In this document: one piece after another, positions 39,898 to 47,652 of the stretch
Layout: the number at the start of each line of letters is the position of its first letter
Position numbering within the stretch: the first letter of the stretch is position 1
From: Pseudonocardia sp. ICBG1293
GTDB lineage: Bacteria; Actinomycetota; Actinomycetes; Mycobacteriales; Pseudonocardiaceae
Length of the DNA: 64,000 bases
Direction: 5' to 3'
Assembly: GCF_020131355.1 (NCBI RefSeq)
Contig: NZ_JAHLEL010000038.1
Span: 186,001 to 250,000 of the forward strand
Position numbers and translations under genes: made by a program
The notes under the pieces: generated by a model
Database searches by the model: none
What the model saw: the letters and a program-made list of their open reading frames with translations, nothing else
What the model was told of the DNA's origin: nothing

Positions 39898-41039
39898 ATG
39901 ACACAGGTGTCGGGCGGACCGGCGGAGCGCGAGCTGCCGCCTGCTGCGGTGGACGAGGAGGTGCTCCTCGCCGAACAGCGGGCGTGGACCCCGCTCAAGA
40001 TCGCGGTGTGGGCGGCGATCGCCCTGCTGGGCGGAGTGGCGTGGGTGATGCTCGCGCTGGTCCGCGGGGAGACGGTGAACGCGATCTGGTTCGTGTTCGC
40101 CGCGGTGAGCACCTACGCGATCGCGTACCGGTTCTACTCGCGCTACATCGAGAACAAGCTCCTGCGGCCGGACGACCGGCGCGCCACCCCGGCGGAGTAC
40201 AAGGAGAACGGCCAGGACTTCCTGCCGACCGACCGGCGGGTCCTCTACGGCCACCACTTCGCCGCGATCGCCGGTGCCGGGCCGCTGGTCGGGCCGGTCC
40301 TCGCGGCGCAGATGGGCTACCTGCCCGGCACGATCTGGATCATCGTCGGCGTCATCGTCGCCGGCGCGGTCCAGGACTACCTGGTGCTGTTCTTCTCGAT
40401 GCGCCGCGGTGGGCGCTCGCTCGGCCAGATGGCGCGCGAGGAGCTCGGCCGGGTCGGTGGCATCGCGGCCATCATCGCGACCCTGGCCATCATGATCATC
40501 CTGATCGCGGTGCTCACGCTGGTCGTGGTGAACGCGCTCGGGGAGAGCCCGTGGGGCGTGTTCTCGGTCGCGCTGACCATCCCGATCGCCCTGTTCATGG
40601 GCGTCTACCTGCGCTACCTGCGTCCGGGCAAGGTCTCCGAGGTCTCCTGGATCGGCTTCGCGCTGCTGATCGGTGCGATCGTCGCCGGCGGCTGGGTCGC
40701 CGAGACCGAGTGGGGCCAGACCCTGTTCACCCTGGACCGCACCACCATCGCCTGGGGTGTGATCGTCTACGGCTTCGTGGCCGCGGTGCTCCCGGTCTGG
40801 CTGCTGCTCGCGCCGTGCGACTACCTGTCGACGTTCATGAAGATCGGCACGATCGTGCTGCTCGCGGTCGCCATCATCGTGGTCCGGCCCGAGCTCGCGG
40901 CGCCCGCGTTCAGCGAGTTCGCGGGCAGCGACGACGGCCCGGTCGTCGCCGGGTCGCTGTTCCCGTTCCTGTTCGTCACCATCGCCTGCGGCGCGCTGTC
41001 CGGCTTCCACGCCCTGATCTCCTCGGGCACCACCCCTAA
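39898..41039 (+). pseudogene. cstA: cstA, 5' half, interrupted (carbon-starvation / pyruvate transporter)
   Basis: Codes the first 381 residues of a CstA-family transporter with many membrane helices; motifs include ENGQDFLPTDRRVLYGHHFA, AGAGPLVGPVLAAQMGYLPG and SGFHALISSGTTPK. In E. coli CstA and BtsT are pyruvate/peptide carriers. After TTPK the frame runs into inserted DNA and stops at 41082. The missing part resumes at 46548 (CTG GTC GAG), which fits the family continuation TPK-L. Target trinucleotide TAA is at 41037-41039. Confidence 0.93.
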
Positions 41040-41191
41040 GAGCGCCCGGCAAATGAGGTCGTGGGGGTGTCGTTGCAGGTAGAGGCACGGACTCTCCAGG
41101 CGACCATCAGGACATCAGCAATCCCATGATCACTTGCAGGTCCGTGTCTCTACCAACACCGACACACGGCCACCTCTACTGCCGGGCGCTC
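41040..41191 (-). mobile_element. 152-bp MITE, deletion derivative of the IS at 45439
   Basis: Ends GAGCGCCCGGCA / TGCCGGGCGCTC, flanked by TAA (41037-41039 and 41192-41194). Read on the minus strand, its first ~115 bp match the left end of the IS at 45439 with two differences, up to and including the transposase start region, then ~37 bp lead to an inverted terminus. No coding capacity. It arose from a relative of that IS with a C in place of T in the terminus. Confidence 0.88.
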
Positions 41192-41194
41192 TAA

Positions 41195-42174
41195 GAGGTC
41201 GCGCGGATTGGTCACAGCTTGGCCGCGGTCGAGTGTCTGGGGGCGAGGGCGGGTACGGGCCTGCCGATCATGAAGTTATCTACGCTTCGTGATCGTCTGG
41301 AGGCCGCGTGCCCACCCTGCCATCATGGCTGACCGAGCCGTTGTGGGACCAGTTCACCGCGCTGCTGCCTCATCGAGACGAGTTCGATCCCACCCATCCG
41401 CTGGGCTGCCATCGCCGCCGGATCGCGGATCGGATCGTGTTCGACAAGCTCCTGCAGGTACTGCGGTTCGGCTGCTCGTATGAGGGCATCGCTGACAGCA
41501 CCTGCTCGGCGACCACCATCCGCGATCGTCGTGACGAGTGGATCAGGCTCGGGGTCTTCGCCCAGCTGCGTCGGATCGTCCTGGACGCCTACGACCGCAT
41601 CGTCGGTCTGCTGCTGCACGACATCGCCGTCGATGGCGCCATCACCAAGGCCCCCGGCGGCGGCGAGGTCGCCGGTCCGTCGCCGGTGGACCGGCGCAAA
41701 CAGGGTATGAAACGTTCGGTGCTCGTCGAGGGATACGGCATCCCGCTGGGCCGAGTCCTGGCCGGAGCCAACCGGCACGACTCCCCGCTACTGGGCCCCA
41801 CCCTCGACCGCCTCGATGCTCTCGGCCCGCTGCCCGACGACATCACCGTGCACCTCGACGCCGGCTATGACTCCGGCAAGACCCGCGACACGCTGGCCGA
41901 ACGAGGCCTGCACGGCGAGATCGCGCACAAGGGTGAGAAAGCGCCGATCCAGGCCACCCGCCGCTGGCACGTCGAGCGGACCAACGCTTGGCACAACAGC
42001 TTCAACCGGCTGCAGCGCTGCTACGAACGACGAGAAATCGTCGTCGACGCGTTCTTCGACCTCGCCGACACGATCGTCACACTCCGTAGCTTGATTCGGC
42101 AGGCCTGGACCACACACCGCTGGAACGCCCGACCTGCACGACGTCCATGATCACCAACCAATCCGCGCGACCTC
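41195..42174 (+). mobile_element. IS5-type insertion sequence, 980 bp
   Basis: Perfect 18-bp terminal inverted repeats starting GAGGTCGCGCGGATTGGT, flanked by TAA (41192-41194, 42175-42177). One intact transposase gene. Second bead in the chain inside cstA. Confidence 0.92.
41308..42150 (+). CDS. IS5-family transposase (intact)
   Basis: 280 residues in one frame, DDE type: first Asp in DIAVDGAITKAPGGGEVAG, second in VHLDAGYDSGKTRDTLAE, Glu in WHVERTNAWHNSFNRL. The N-terminal part holds the IS5 helix-turn-helix (LTEPLWDQFTALLPHRDE, CHRRRIADRIVFDKLLQVLR). GTG start. Related to, but clearly distinct from, the transposase at 45542. Probably active. Confidence 0.93.
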   Translation: MPTLPSWLTEPLWDQFTALLPHRDEFDPTHPLGCHRRRIADRIVFDKLLQVLRFGCSYEGIADSTCSATTIRDRRDEWIRLGVFAQLRRIVLDAYDRIVGLLLHDIAVDGAITKAPGGGEVAGPSPVDRRKQGMKRSVLVEGYGIPLGRVLAGANRHDSPLLGPTLDRLDALGPLPDDITVHLDAGYDSGKTRDTLAERGLHGEIAHKGEKAPIQATRRWHVERTNAWHNSFNRLQRCYERREIVVDAFFDLADTIVTLRSLIRQAWTTHRWNARPARRP

Positions 42175-42177
42175 TAA

Positions 42178-42298
42178 GAGGTCGTTTCAGAACGACTTGT
42201 CGAGTTTCCATTGACCCCTCGACGACAGATCAAACGGCAGGTCAGATAGCCGCTTGTCGTCTACAACAGACACGTCGACCTCGTTCTGAAATGACCTC
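42178..42298 (+). mobile_element. 121-bp MITE, copy B
   Basis: Identical to copies C and D in the same orientation and to the reverse complement of copy A. Flanked by TAA at 42175-42177 and 42299-42301, each shared with the neighbouring IS. Confidence 0.94.
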
Positions 42299-42365
42299 TA
42301 AGACGTCGTTTCAGAAGTGGTGGGCCCGGTTCTGCCGGTGACGGCGGGGCTGGCAGCATCGGCTG

Positions 42366-42959
42366 ATGGTCGCGCCTCGTGTGTCTGAGAAGACGAAGAT
42401 TTTCGAGTTGGAGATCGTCCTGACCGAGGTGGTGCCGGCGGTCCGGCGTCGGGTGCAGGTGCCGGGCGAGGTCGACTTGGCGGTGTTGCACGAGGTGGTG
42501 CAGTCAGTGATGGGCTGGACGAACTCTCATCTGCACGAGTTCGAGATCGTCGGGCGCCGCTACGGGATCCCAGACCCGGACTGGCCCGGACAGGATGTCG
42601 CCGACGAGACGAAAGAGAAGCTGTTTCGGCTGGTCAAGGCTGGTGACCGGTTCGGTTACGTCTACGACTTCGGTGACAACTGGGCCCACGAGATCACCGT
42701 CGAGGCGGTCGCGGCCGTCGAGCCGGGAGTGTGCTATCCGCGATGCGTCGCCGGGCAGGGGGCGTGCCCGCCCGAGGACGTCGGCGGGATCGGGGGGTAT
42801 GAGGACTTCCAGGCCGTGCTCGCCGACCCTGACCATCCCGACCGCGCCGAGCGCCTGGAGTGGGCGGGCGGGCCGTTCGACCCGCACCGCTTCGACCCTG
42901 ACGAGGCCGACCGGGCCTTGGAGTGGCTGGCCTGGCGGCCGCTGGCCCCGACCTCGTAG
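42366..42959 (+). CDS. plasmid pRiA4b ORF-3-like protein, IS passenger
   Basis: 197 residues, PRiA4_ORF3 domain (IS1096 TnpR-like): FELEIVLTEVVPAVRRRVQV, LHEVVQSVMGWTNSHLHEFE, DRFGYVYDFGDNWAHEITVE and the C-terminal CPPEDVGGIGGYEDF with three cysteines. These small proteins occur as cargo of actinobacterial IS elements and were named resolvase-like without proof. It faces the transposase gene, 31 bp apart, so it is not its cotranscript. Confidence 0.87.
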   Translation: MVAPRVSEKTKIFELEIVLTEVVPAVRRRVQVPGEVDLAVLHEVVQSVMGWTNSHLHEFEIVGRRYGIPDPDWPGQDVADETKEKLFRLVKAGDRFGYVYDFGDNWAHEITVEAVAAVEPGVCYPRCVAGQGACPPEDVGGIGGYEDFQAVLADPDHPDRAERLEWAGGPFDPHRFDPDEADRALEWLAWRPLAPTS

Positions 42960-42990
42960 GCGAGTGCCTCAGCGAGGGCTGGGTCGACCA

Positions 42991-43836
42991 TCACTTCGGC
43001 TTCGGCTTCGGCTTGGTGAGGCGGCGGTGGCAGATCAGGGCGCAGGCCAGCGATAACAGCGCGGTGATCGTGGATTCGGCGCGGTCGTAGCGCAGCGCGA
43101 GGCGGCGGAAGTCCAGCAGCCAGGACATGGTGCGCTCGACGACCCAGCGGACCCGCCCGAGCCGGGTGGAGTCCTCGATCCCGCGCCGGGCGATCCGCAC
43201 CCCGATCCCACGCCCACTCAGGTAGCGGCGGCAGCGGGGATAGTCGTAGCCCTTGTCGGCGTGCACCTTGTCCGGCCGACGTCGCGGACGCCCCGGCTGT
43301 CCCGCCCGTTCGCGGACGCCGGGGTTGGTGTCCAGCAGCGGGGCGAGCATCCGACTGTCGTGGGTGTTCGCCCCGGTGACCAGCGCATGCAGCGGGAGCC
43401 CGCCTCGGTCGCAGAGCACGTGGTACTTGCTGCCCGCCTTCCCGCGATCGGTCGGCGAGGGCCCGGTGGCCTCGCCGCGGCGCTTGGCCCGCACGCTCAC
43501 GCTGTCCACCGCCGCCCGCGACCAGTCCAGCAGGCCCTGCTGGGCGAGGCGGTCGAGCATCACCCGGTGCAGCTGGGCCCAGACCCCGGCCTGCTGCCAC
43601 TGCCGTAGCCGCCGCCAGCAGGTCACTCCGGACCCACAGCCGAGCTCGGCGGGCAGCGCGTTCCAGCTGATCCCGGTCTTGAGCACGAACACGATCCCGG
43701 CCAGAGCGGCCCGATCCGGCACCCGCGGACGGCCTGTCCGTCCCCGCTTGTGCTTGCGCGGCTTGGGCAGCAGCGGCTCCACCAGCGCCCACAGCTCGTC
43801 GCTCACCAATCGCTCGACACAAGATCGCCGCGCCAC
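42991..43836 (-). CDS. IS5-family transposase (intact)
   Basis: 281 residues: DDE residues in WSRAAVDSVSVRAKRRGEAT, DKVHADKGYDYPRCRRYL and GRVRWVVERTMSWLLDFRRL; N-terminal LVSDELWALVEPLLPKP and ALAGIVFVLKTGISWNALP. The frame is unbroken and it probably also acts on the 121-bp MITE. GTG start. The C-terminus is an odd KPKPKPK tail. Confidence 0.93.
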   Translation of the reverse strand: MARRSCVERLVSDELWALVEPLLPKPRKHKRGRTGRPRVPDRAALAGIVFVLKTGISWNALPAELGCGSGVTCWRRLRQWQQAGVWAQLHRVMLDRLAQQGLLDWSRAAVDSVSVRAKRRGEATGPSPTDRGKAGSKYHVLCDRGGLPLHALVTGANTHDSRMLAPLLDTNPGVRERAGQPGRPRRRPDKVHADKGYDYPRCRRYLSGRGIGVRIARRGIEDSTRLGRVRWVVERTMSWLLDFRRLALRYDRAESTITALLSLACALICHRRLTKPKPKPK

Positions 43837-43907
43837 GACCGGACATGATCAGCTACCAGCGCCGATCCACACAGGACCGACACGCCGACTTCTGAAACGA
43901 CCTCTAA

Positions 43908-45310
43908 TACTCCAGCCGCACTTCGTTAGCTGAGCTGTCTTCGTCGTCGATAGTGGCTTTCGCGGGCTCGGTGTTGGTGGCGACGTCGCCAGGTCGACCA
44001 GGCCCAGCACGGCGCCTGGGTGGGAATGTGGATCAGAGGTGCCAGGAGACGTCGGATCTCGGCGAGGGTGAGCGGGATGAGCCCGTGATCAGGTCTTTTG
44101 GGGCGATCGCCGCGGTGACCGAGAGGTAGGCGTGGGCGAGAATAGCCAGGGTGACGTGGCGGTACCAGGCGTCGTAACGCCGCACTTGATAGTGGTCGAG
44201 CCCGACCTCGTTCTTCGCGGTCTGGAAGCACTCCTCGATCGCCCACCGCGTGCCGGCGACGCGGATGAGATCGTCGTCGGTGGTGCCGGGCGGGCCGGCG
44301 CACAGGTAGTAGGCCAGATCGGGCTCCTCGCCGGCGGAGAGCTGTGTGTCGGTGAGGATCTGACGTCGGACCAGTAGCCATCGGCCCCATCCGGCCGGGG
44401 CGTTCTCGGGCGGATACAGCGAGGCCACGGCCCAGTCGTAGAAGCGTTCTCCCTTCACACCCGGACCGGCTGAGCGGCGCTTCCACGCCCGTCCGGGAGC
44501 GCGGGCGACCAGGTCGTCGGCCCGTCGTGAGCCGCTGATCTGACAGATGTCGGCGTCCAGGGACAACGGGACGGACTGGCTGCGCGGAACCGCGACGACG
44601 TAGCCGATCCGGCGCTGCTCGCACCAGGTGCGGAACTTGTAGTCCTGCCCGTATGCCTCGTCCGCGGTCACCCATCCTGCGGGAACCCCGGCATCGAGGG
44701 CACGGCCGAGCATTTCCTTGGCCAGCGTGGCCTTGGTGGCGAACTCGATCTCCTCAGGCACCGCCGCGGCTCGGCAGCGTTCCCGATCACCGGTCCAGGA
44801 CTTGGGCAGGTAGAGCTCGCGGTCGATCAACGTCCGGCCCTTGCTCGTGGCATAGGCACAGAAGACTCCGAGCTGGCAGTTCTCCACCCGCCCGGCAGTG
44901 CCCGAGTACTGGCGCTGCACCCCCGCCGACTTCGTCCCCTTCTTCAGGAACCCGGTCTCATCGACGATCAGCACCCCACCGGACTCGCCGAGGTGCTCGA
45001 CGACGTAATCCCGCAGGTCATCACGGACACCGTCGACATCCCAGGTCGCGGAGTTGAGCAGCCGCTGCATCCCATCCGGAGTCGTGTCACCGGCGACCTC
45101 GGCCAGCGTCCACCCGTTCTTCCCCGCCAACGGCGCCAACAACCCCCGCACATACGCCCGCGCCCGACGCCGCGGTTCCGTCCGGAAGAACCGGCCCGCC
45201 ACCAGCCCGAACAGCCCATCCAGGCCACCGGCCCACGCCTCGAGATCCTCCTCCACCTGCACAAGATCGAAGCTTAGCGCACATCAACATCACAAACTGC
45301 GGCTGGAGTA
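43908..45310 (-). mobile_element. IS701-family insertion sequence, 1403 bp
   Basis: Terminal inverted repeats TACTCCAGCCGCA / TGCGGCTGGAGTA, flanked by CTAA at 43904-43907 and 45311-45314. A 4-bp YTAR-type duplication is the known IS701 pattern. The target was the CTC-TAA-GAG seam between the preceding IS and MITE copy C, so this insertion is younger than that seam. Confidence 0.92.
44033..45262 (-). CDS. IS701-family transposase (intact)
   Basis: 409 residues. DDE domain features: GGVLIVDETGFLKKGTKSAG (first Asp), AGWVTADEAYGQDYKFRTWC (second Asp) and RWAIEECFQTAKNEVGLDHY (Glu). N-terminal FFRTEPRRRARAYVRGLLAP is typical. GTG start. No frame damage seen. Confidence 0.93.
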   Translation of the reverse strand: MQVEEDLEAWAGGLDGLFGLVAGRFFRTEPRRRARAYVRGLLAPLAGKNGWTLAEVAGDTTPDGMQRLLNSATWDVDGVRDDLRDYVVEHLGESGGVLIVDETGFLKKGTKSAGVQRQYSGTAGRVENCQLGVFCAYATSKGRTLIDRELYLPKSWTGDRERCRAAAVPEEIEFATKATLAKEMLGRALDAGVPAGWVTADEAYGQDYKFRTWCEQRRIGYVVAVPRSQSVPLSLDADICQISGSRRADDLVARAPGRAWKRRSAGPGVKGERFYDWAVASLYPPENAPAGWGRWLLVRRQILTDTQLSAGEEPDLAYYLCAGPPGTTDDDLIRVAGTRWAIEECFQTAKNEVGLDHYQVRRYDAWYRHVTLAILAHAYLSVTAAIAPKDLITGSSRSPSPRSDVSWHL

Positions 45311-45314
45311 CTAA

Positions 45315-45435
45315 GAGGTCGTTTCAGAACGACTTGTCGAGTTTCCATTGACCCCTCGACGACAGATCAAACGGCAGGTCAGATAGCCGCTTGTCGTCTA
45401 CAACAGACACGTCGACCTCGTTCTGAAATGACCTC
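45315..45435 (+). mobile_element. 121-bp MITE, copy C
   Basis: Identical to copies B and D. Flanked by TAA at 45312-45314 (part of the IS701 CTAA duplication) and 45436-45438. Confidence 0.94.
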
Positions 45436-45438
45436 TAA

Positions 45439-46419
45439 GAGCGTCCGGCAGTAGAGGTGGCCGTGTGTCGGTGTTGGTAGAGACACGGACCTGCAAGTGA
45501 TCATGGGATTGCTGATGTCCTGATGGTCGCCTGGAGGGTCCGTGCCTCTATTGCCAGAATCGCTGATCGACCCCCTCTGGGTCGAGTTCGCTGCCCTGAT
45601 CGAGGCAGAGCGGCGCCCGGAGTTCGACCCGGCCCATCCGTGGGGATGTCACCGCCGCCGTATCCCCGACCGCCTGGTGTTCGAGCACGTGCTCGCGGCG
45701 TTGGTGCACGGCAGCGGCTACGAACGCATTGCCACCCCCGGCTGCTCGGACCGCACGATCCGCCGCCGTCTCGCCCAGTGGGCCGCCGCTGGCGTCGGGG
45801 AGCAGGTCCTTCGGGCCGCGCTGGCCGGCTATGACTAGATGATCGGTCTCGACCTCGACGATCTGTCTGCCGACGGAGCGATCACCAAGGCTCCCTGCGG
45901 TGGCGAGGTCGCCGGCTGTAACCCGGTCGACCGGGGCAAACAGGGCACCAAACGCTCCGTGGTCTGCGACGGTGCGGGGATCCCGCTGCACCTGATCAGC
46001 GCCCGCGCCAATGACCACGACTCGCCGTTGCTGAAACCGACCCTGATCGGGATCTACGACATGATCGGGCCGCTGCCCGAGCGACCGTGCCTGCACCTGG
46101 ACCGGGGCTATGACTCAGGCAAGACCCGCGATCTGCTCGAACGACTCGGGTTCGACGCACAGATCGCCACCAAGGGCCGGCCCGCCCCGATCCAGGTCGG
46201 TAAGCGGTGGCCGGTCGAGCGCACCCATTCCTGGATGAACGGCTACGGCAAGCTGCGCCGGTTCACCGATCGCCGGAAGATCATCGTCGAGTTCTACCTC
46301 GACCTCGCCGCCGCGCTCACCGTGATCCGCCGGCTGATCAACCGTGCCCGCAGCCGCTACCGCTGGACAACCCGACCCACGACCCGTCGACTCCGATAAC
46401 CATCAATCGCCGGACGCTC
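45439..46419 (+). mobile_element. IS5-type insertion sequence, 981 bp
   Basis: Ends GAGCGTCCGGC on both sides (11 bp), flanked by TAA (45436-45438) and TTA (46420-46422), both within TNA. Parent type of the 152-bp MITE at 41040. Its transposase frame contains an amber codon, so it may not be autonomous. Confidence 0.9.
45542..46399 (+). pseudogene. IS5-family transposase interrupted by an amber codon
   Basis: The N-terminal 98 residues (LLPESLIDPLWVEFAALIEA ... ALAGYD) end at TAG (45836-45838); the same frame continues at once with ATG (45839) as MIGLDLDDLSADGAITKAPC, then LHLDRGYDSGKTRDLLERLG and WPVERTHSWMNGYGKL. The paralogue at 41308 reads YDRIVGLLLHD here, so TAG stands for an original sense codon, for instance CAG. 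All three DDE residues lie after the stop; reinitiation at TAGATG could still give a 186-residue catalytic part without the DNA-binding part. Confidence 0.85.
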
Positions 46420-46422
46420 TTA

Positions 46423-46543
46423 GAGGTCGTTTCAGAACGACTTGTCGAGTTTCCATTGACCCCTCGACGACAGATCAAACGGCAGGTCAGATAGCCGCTT
46501 GTCGTCTACAACAGACACGTCGACCTCGTTCTGAAATGACCTC
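46423..46543 (+). mobile_element. 121-bp MITE, copy D
   Basis: Identical to copies B and C. Left flank TTA (46420-46422), right flank TAA (46544-46546). Its right flank is the right copy of the original cstA target trinucleotide. Confidence 0.94.
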
Positions 46544-46547
46544 TAAG

Positions 46548-47652
46548 CTGGTCGAGAAGGAGCGCCAGACCCGGTTCATCGGCTACGGCGGCATGCTGAT
46601 GGAGTCCTTCGTCGCGATCATGGCGCTGGTCGCGGCGCTGTCGATCGACCGCGGGCTCTACTTCGCGATGAACGTGCCCACGTCGCTGACCGAGGGCACC
46701 GTCGAGGGTGCGGCCGCGTTCGTCAACTCGCTCGGCCTGATGAACGTCAACGTCACCCCCGGACCAGCTCGCGACGACCGCGGCGCTGGTCGGCGAGGAG
46801 TCGATCGTGTCGCGCACCGGCGGCGCGCCGACCCTGGCCGTCGGCCTGGCGAACATCATGCAGCAGTTCATCGGCGGGCCCGCGATGATGAGCTTCTGGT
46901 ACCACTTCGCGATCATGTTCGAGGCGCTGTTCATCCTCACCGCCGTCGACGCGGGTACCCGGGTGGCGCGCTTCATGCTCCAGGACGCGATCGGCACCGT
47001 CGTCCCGCGGTTCAAGGACACCTCGTGGCGGCCGGCGGCCTGGATCTGCACCGGCCTGATGGTCGGGGCGTGGGGCGCGATCCTGCTGATGGGCGTGAGC
47101 GACCCGCTCGGCGGGATCAACACGCTGTTCCCGCTGTTCGGCATCGCGAACCAGCTGCTCGCCGCGATCGCGCTCGCGGTCTGCCTGGCGATCGCGGCAC
47201 GGCGCGGGCAGGTGCGCTATCTGTGGATCATCGTCGTGCCACTGGCCTTCGCCGCGGTCGTCACGGTCACGGCGTCGATGTACAAGATCTTCTCCTCGAA
47301 CCCGAAGATCGGGTACTGGGCGCAGCACCTCGCCTTCCGCGAGGCCATCGCGTCCGGGGAGACGAGCTTCGGCACCGCGGGCACCCCACAGGCGATGGCG
47401 GCCGTCGTCCGCAACACCTTCGTGCAGGGCTCGCTGTCGATCCTGTTCGTGACGCTTGCGCTCGTCGTGATCGTCGCCGCGGTGCTGGCCGCCTGGAAGT
47501 CGATCTCGGTGGGTGGCCGTCCGGACCACGAGGAGGAGCCGGTGGCATCGCGGCTCTACGCCCCGGCGGGCCTGGTCGCGACCCCGGCGGAGAAGGAGCT
47601 GGAGAAGGAGTGGACCGAGGCGGTCGGCACACCGGCGCGGTCGGGGCACTGA
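46548..47652 (+). pseudogene. cstA: cstA, 3' half, with a further frameshift
   Basis: Codes the last ~367 residues of CstA: LVEKERQTRFIGYGGMLMES onward, then after a +1 shift LATTAALVGEESIVSRTGGA and AVGLANIMQQF. A run of five C at 46756-46760 where four are expected (NVTPDQL in the family) throws the frame; the rest reads in the frame ending at 47652. No start codon or ribosome site suits independent expression. With the transposon chain upstream, this copy should give no full transporter unless both lesions are repaired. Confidence 0.9.

Follow-up and report, generated by a model that had tools for sequence, protein, structure and literature searches.

Head-to-tail chains of insertion sequences in Pseudonocardia sp. 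ICBG1293 and their probable growth on a scarce target

The cstA gene of Pseudonocardia sp. ICBG1293 is interrupted by eight transposable elements that follow one another end to end. It lies in a 64,000-nucleotide stretch of contig NZ_JAHLEL010000038.1 (positions 186,001 to 250,000; the whole stretch is called the window here), and the elements are, in order, M152, IS5A, M121, IS5B, IS701, M121, IS5C and M121, of which M121 and M152 are miniature inverted-repeat transposable elements (MITEs) and the others are insertion sequences (ISs). How did such a chain arise: through one composite insertion, or through repeated insertion at the ends of elements already in place? The initial annotation, made from the sequence alone, argued for the latter, and a sequence check confirmed its eight units and their seams to the base (Table 1). 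Analysis of the rest of the genome (8.0 Mb in 86 contigs) and of related genomes has led us to favour, at a probability of about 0.72, a model in which a scarce target regenerates itself upon insertion and chains grow mostly by single insertions carried out by several transposases, rather than by one composite insertion.

In this model, three IS5-family elements and two MITEs would be the mobile units, along with an IS701-family element and X1605 (NF041680 family), which lies elsewhere in the genome. The TWA-class elements would share the target TWA (W, A or T), best within CTWAG, while the IS701 element would use a related 4-bp CTAG or CTAA; CTWAG is almost absent from this 74% G+C genome. 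As the TWA-class elements begin with G and end with C, insertion into C-TWA-G would give C-TWA-G(element)C-TWA-G, and the target would be doubled at the element edges. With rising copy number, self-made sites would come to exceed native ones, later copies would settle beside earlier ones and chains would lengthen by Yule (Polya-urn) growth, with a minority of modules shuffled by recombination or moved jointly. This growth would be neutral with respect to selection.

Element families

IS5A and IS5B score above the cut-off of the IS5-family model NF033580 (Table 1); in IS5C, a stop codon leaves the C-terminal half at 81 bits, which does not reach the cut-off. All three have terminal inverted repeats of about 11-18 bp. 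The IS701 element is placed in its family both by NF033540 and by its 4-bp target duplication, which is CTAA in the window (43904-43907 and 45311-45314, around ends that read TACTCCAGCCGCA) and CTAG at solo copies. M121 and M152 have the features of MITEs, being short, devoid of a transposase gene, provided with inverted ends shared with an autonomous element, present in many copies and flanked by TWA duplications. M121 (121 bp), with IS5B-like ends, has at least 41 identical copies in the genome, and its three copies in the window are identical. M152 has 7 copies in the sample described below, and its positions 41080-41191 match the left end of IS5C in inverted orientation (98% identity over 112 bp). 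X1605, the seventh unit, carries a NF041680-family transposase and has the ends GCTTG...CAAGC.

Nearly all full copies of a given unit type are 99-100% identical to one another, the exceptions being 3 of 12 IS5C and 1 of 31 IS5A copies (first sample). An IS5B-end probe gave no match in the close relatives G005, G030 and G008; together with the near-identity of the copies, this can be read as the trace of a recent burst. The TAG stop in the IS5C transposase is common to 9 of the 15 full copies examined. The stop-bearing copies have multiplied all the same, and were probably mobilised either in trans by intact relatives or along with M121. Separately, a 1120-bp IS630-family element, Y630 (NF033545, 261 bits; for example C6:209607-210726), is inserted at CTAG, and one of its copies occupies the CTAG containing the IS5C stop codon. 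The passenger gene of IS5B, PRiA4_ORF3, is also found in a 73% identical element on the Pseudonocardia plasmid pLS2-1 (L265 1823-2416).

Chains across the genome

The initial annotation proposed a search of the genome for further seams like those in cstA. The motif CTCTWAGAG, which marks a GAG...CTC element abutting another across TAA or TTA, occurs 210 times in this genome and 0-4 times in each of 61 congeners. A draw of 396 genomes from the phylum, made up of this one and 395 others, gave 34 as the runner-up value, for a genome whose control count was 51.

Chains were described in a large sample of 1.83 Mb, mostly contiguous, comprising C6:1-415000, C7:1-280000, C8:1-320000, C14:1-380000 and C38:1-436000. 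The sampling was not random in the strict sense: C6, C7, C8 and C14 came from among the M121 matches listed and were taken as contiguous stretches, C38 holds the window, and C6:400001-415000 was picked for its matches. Several smaller stretches (parts of C1, C9, C11, C17 and C18, C6:450001-470000 and C14:400001-420000) were likewise picked for matches; these smaller stretches are excluded from the counts of 125 entries and 27 sites given below and are included in the seam, pair, free-site and middle-base counts. Of 125 unit entries, among which the pieces of interrupted copies were counted separately, 101 lie within chains of 2-9 units, the longest having nine units (C7:108656-114719). Of 92 seams, 90 were scored as having one TAA or TTA as the joint; the remaining two are an IS701-IS701 seam and a unit edge mis-set by a base. 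The joints are not microsatellites, and the chains are non-nested multimers: the 92 seams compare with four insertions seen inside library units, three of the TWA class (IS5A in IS5A twice, and M121 at the CTTAG of IS701) and one of Y630.

A second class of chain, on the rare tetramer CTAG, was seen at C6:90698-94579, where the order is IS701-CTAG-IS701-CTAG-R, R being a repeat discussed below; the first IS701 of this chain holds M121 at its internal CTTAG. Outside this genome, the Pseudonocardia plasmid pFRP1-1 (NZ_CP010990.1) has a similar seam, at which a truncated IS5A-like copy meets another IS5A-like copy. When other genomes were scanned for GACCTCTWAGAGGTC, a crude inverted-end test gave a plausible neighbouring element in 2 of the 70 stretches listed, out of at least 70. 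In Marinomonas piezotolerans, the GACCTCTWAGAGGTC palindrome stands near the ends of loci L205, L208, L210, L234 and L238, which are probably contig ends, and suggests a repeated element there.

Target preference and scarcity

The outer flanks of TWA-class units with intact ends read TNA in 102 of 105 cases. Of the three exceptions, one stems from a unit edge placed a base off, and two belong to IS5C variants (GAA, GTA) without TNA duplication. In the 43 distinct free sites, a set filtered for TNA on both sides, the middle base is always A or T, and at solo sites with TNA on both sides the duplication is identical in 20 of 20. The preference extends one base outward, as CTAAG or CTTAG accounts for 19 of 40 matching free sites. 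Occupancy falls steeply with the fit of the neighbouring bases: 17 of 27 chromosomal CTWAG sites are occupied, compared with 18 of 214 sites having one fitting neighbour and 3 of 374 having none (Fisher p 3e-10 and 3e-6). The free sites behind these figures number 196 with one fitting neighbour, 371 with none and, for CTWAG, 11 less one IS701 flank. Positions beyond +/-2 contribute at most 0.13 bit in free sites, and a wider consensus, CTCTWAGAG, was rejected since it is as such absent from them. These patterns would reflect the target specificity of the transposases themselves.

The preferred pentamer is also scarce. Only 11 free CTWAG sites occur in 1.74 Mb, the lowest count among the 160 pentamers with two G/C positions (next 29, mean 786). 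CTWAG is likewise rare in G005, at 3 per 400 kb, where the IS5B-end probe has no match; the scarcity is therefore not a product of the burst.

Growth law and the role of element ends

If an insertion into CTWAG yields two CTWAG sites and all sites are hit at an equal rate, the number of units per native site should be geometrically distributed. The observed sizes follow this expectation. CTWAG sites with 0-8 units, empties included, number 10, 7, 4, 2, 0, 1, 2, 0 and 1, and the geometric (Yule) law gives 10.0, 6.3, 4.0, 2.5, 1.6, 1.0, 0.6, 0.4 and 0.25; for empty sites, 10 were seen and 9.99 expected. The log-likelihood is -48.1 for the geometric and -56.4 for the Poisson distribution, which is thus 8.3 log units worse. 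Seven chains or units were omitted here because TWA does not stand on both sides of them, including a 7-unit chain that starts with IS701. Given the small sample and the possible inequality of native sites, the fit is a matter of consistency and not proof. An urn simulation over all site classes, run on a coarse grid, fits about equally well with seams weighted 1-3 times native sites and less well at 0.5 and 4; by this model, seams would need to be only about 1-3 times as attractive as native CTWAG.

This range bears on the possibility that element ends are specifically recognised, a TWA between terminal repeats (CTC...GAG) being preferred well beyond the preference for CTWAG. Such recognition would account for the abundance of seams and for the presence of X1605 in chains in 6 of 6 sampled copies, and seam weights up to about 3 are compatible with the urn simulation. 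However, free CTWAG sites are 63% occupied, the size law fits with equal weights, a weight of 4 fits worse and the free sites hold almost no information outside the pentamer, which makes end recognition unlikely in our judgement. The initial annotation had supposed that the ends themselves were re-used as targets. Re-use is upheld, but what is re-used appears to be the duplicated TWA or CTWAG, and the ends need little or no special attraction.

Stepwise growth

In chains with equal flanks, 61 of the 71 inner seams have the same middle base as the flanks (binomial p 2e-10 against one half). Empty and filled states of the same site can also be compared in repeat R, which carries an IS5-family transposase in two frames and a CTAG duplication judged by eye. 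Its internal TTA is empty in 5 copies and holds different chains in 3 more (C14:33738-36808, C17:4655-6375 and C6:408801-414096, of which the C6 copy differs slightly at the left joint); at C38:394713-395941 there is a fourth chain, flanked by repeat R on only one side. A TAA near the end of repeat R is empty in 4 copies, filled by M121 alone in 3 and by IS5A plus M121 in 1, this IS5A itself carrying a nested IS5A. At C38:325930, where this genome has a two-unit chain, the orthologous site in G005 is empty with the TAA in place. Unit orders and orientations vary between chains. The initial annotation's preference for repeated insertion at element ends over one composite insertion is supported by the middle bases, the states of repeat R and this variety. 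A composite transposon comprising the whole chain was also rejected on the grounds that the chain in the window begins with M152 and ends with M121 and that order and orientation differ between loci.

Elements could also be brought together by selection, if insertion were widespread and copies survived only in DNA that was already dispensable, such as other elements. Elements do sit together, cstA is broken twice, and repeat R, itself an IS, was struck repeatedly at two interior sites. Yet the DNA inside the seven library units, which amounts to about 112 kb over the whole sample, is as dispensable as their edges and was seen to have received only the three TWA-class insertions mentioned above, as against 92 seams. 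CTWAG sites are few in these interiors, with 6 in all intact copies together, and the insertions in repeat R are at two C-TWA sites; target content therefore predicts the pattern better than safety, and we consider such selection an improbable explanation.

Several observations weigh against stepwise growth on regenerated targets or limit it. Ten inner seams out of 71 have the wrong middle base. They include the seam at 46420-46422 in the window, where a TTA stands between TAA seams and flanks, a pattern that simple target duplication does not give; the stepwise layout proposed by the initial annotation thus describes most seams and not these ten. Two chains have unequal flanks (a third listed case is an artefact of nested insertion). 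The cstA site lacks the TAA in 29 of 29 relatives' loci among the matches listed. The number of CTWAG sites is small (27). With seams weighted 1, the urn predicts too few chain units where one neighbour fits (40.5 +/- 9.0, as against 57 seen) and too many at CTWAG sites (62.6 +/- 9.0, as against 46 seen); native sites in essential genes may never have been available, which would trade off against the seam weight. Neighbours are unevenly paired: IS5C-M121 adjacency is 19 (7.2 expected), IS5A-IS5B adjacency is mildly high at 13 (7.7 expected), same-type adjacency is 4 (19.5 expected) and M121-M121 adjacency is 0 (9.1 expected), and chains are therefore not random mixtures. Repeated pairs (56 vs 44) and triples (10 vs 4.2, p 0.005) exceed a full shuffle, while in an orientation-only shuffle pairs are barely above expectation (52.2, p 0.04) and triples (p 0.24) and quadruples (p 0.45) are not. 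Together, these misfits suggest that recombination or joint movement has played some part, as perhaps has the loss of adjacent identical copies; the wrong middle bases in particular indicate that some modules were moved by recombination or together. End-based target immunity is not supported as the cause of the missing M121-M121 pairs, as M121 and IS5B share terminal sequences and yet are adjacent 8 times against 9.1 expected. Collapse of adjacent identical repeats and palindrome instability are likelier candidate causes.

That chains spread mainly as composite multi-unit transposons or by homologous recombination between loci, as the discordant seams, the repeated pairs and triples, the same relative orientation of IS5B-IS701 at three loci and the bracketing of IS5C by M121 on both sides in 6 of 17 entries might suggest, is very improbable given the concordance of most seams, the near-disappearance of the excess in the orientation-only shuffle and the fact that 2 of the 3 IS5C variants of 82-84% identity also adjoin M121; as a side process it is likely.

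Relation to known systems

Targets of the form TNA or TWA are characteristic of the IS1031-like group of the IS5 family and of PIF/Harbinger elements, and PIF has a longer palindromic target. Like the elements described here, the IS5-family members with three-base targets (IS1031-like) and PIF/Harbinger with its Tourist MITEs combine a DDE transposase, a 3-bp target and MITEs; chaining at such a scale did not turn up for either group in the literature searched. IS4321 and IS5075 offer a further parallel, in that they occur time and again at the ends of a different element. They target the ends of Tn21-family transposons, are IS1111-type DEDD enzymes with a specific, guided target, and are not known to form self-propagating chains.

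Non-nested arrays have been described in two other settings. The SaTar elements of guayule and rice are non-autonomous Mu-like elements in non-nested arrays, an arrangement that the abstract of that report calls previously undescribed in eukaryotic or prokaryotic genomes (PMC5907723). According to the same account, they share with the chains in Pseudonocardia the end-to-end, uninterrupted units, and their joints are microsatellites, for which homologous recombination was proposed (PMC5907723). Measured against that description, the present chains differ in that the joint is one duplicated 3-bp TWA, that complete bacterial ISs take part and that target scarcity would explain growth. In pithoviruses, M1-M2 arrays consist of alternating MITE-like units whose neighbours share a target dinucleotide; there are two unit types in a giant virus, and a related transposon was not found in the amoeba host (PMC10664404). 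By comparison with that portrayal, the present system has seven unit types with transposases in a bacterial genome. A bacterial case of such arrays did not turn up in the literature searched, which is limited evidence. We file the bacterial chains built from complete ISs as a variant of a kind already known from plants and giant viruses.

The chains indicate that arrays in which unrelated elements lie end to end are not confined to plants and giant viruses: in a bacterium, complete ISs form them too, mostly by simple insertion. They suggest a countable and testable rule, whereby transposons that have run out of a preferred target multiply the target themselves and then stack, and they link genome composition, target choice and transposon burden, the genome with its 210 seams providing natural data. 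More tentatively, unrelated transposase classes may have come to share G...C termini that rebuild a scarce target, so that the elements of one genome would collectively build and share landing arrays; target rarity might set the law of preferential growth and might generally control transposon architecture in high-G+C genomes.

The interrupted cstA gene

The layout of the chain is given in Table 1; its outer flanks are two copies of TAA. The initial annotation described one TAA or TTA between all units and GAG...CTC ends joined by TAA. This is correct in general, but the gap after IS701 is the 4-base CTAA duplication, the second IS5-type unit starts with GACGTC and one seam is TTA.

Table 1. 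Positions of the chain units, their joints and the flanking parts of cstA in the window
Feature	Position	Strand	Details
cstA 5' part	39898..41036	+	Pfam CstA, profile 1-322
TAA target, left copy	41037..41039	.	context C-TAA-G after joining
MITE M152	41040..41191	+	ends GAGCGCCCGGC
Seam TAA	41192..41194	.	CTCTAAGAG at 41189
IS5A, IS5-family, 980 bp	41195..42174	+	transposase 41308-42150; NCBIfam NF033580 157 bits, cut-off 110
Seam TAA	42175..42177	.	CTCTAAGAG at 42172
MITE M121	42178..42298	+	ends GAGGTC(G/A)TTTCAGAACGA, resembling IS5B ends
Seam TAA	42299..42301	.	
IS5B, IS5-family, 1603 bp	42302..43904	-	transposase 42991-43836 (-); NF033580 248 bits
IS5B passenger gene PRiA4_ORF3	42366-42959	+	PF07929 E 8e-63
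Seam TAA	43905..43907	.	belongs to IS701 4-bp CTAA duplication (43904-43907)
IS701-family element	43908..45310	-	transposase 44033-45262 (-); NF033540 445 bits, cut-off 150
CTAA	45311..45314	.	IS701 right duplication and seam to M121
MITE M121, identical copy	45315..45435	+	
Seam TAA	45436..45438	.	CTCTAAGAG at 45433
IS5C, IS5-family, 981 bp	45439..46419	+	transposase frame broken by TAG stop 45836-45838
Seam TTA	46420..46422	.	CTCTTAGAG at 46417; sole window seam with middle base unlike flanks
MITE M121, identical copy	46423..46543	+	
TAA target, right copy	46544..46546	.	
cstA 3' part	46547..47652	+	frame displaced by a net one base near 46756-46761 compared with G005 and G008

The cstA site was compared across 62 genomes, including this one; 57 gave some match, and the matches listed include 29 relatives' loci. 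The comparison with relatives that the initial annotation had called for gave a gapless, empty site in 29 of 29 of these loci, but in none of them does it read CCT AAG; all have CCG AAG or CCC AAG. Relative to these listed loci, the CCT codon that creates the TAA target is seen only in this genome. Deletion of the chain was expected to restore CstA. Joining 41039 to 46547 does give TTPK-LVEK, but the downstream frame is shifted by a net extra base near 46756-46761, which neither of the two relatives compared, G005 and G008, has, and removal of the chain would therefore not yield the full CstA frame as assembled. This base is either a second lesion or a sequencing error. A second cstA-like match, at 76%, lies at C8:293378.

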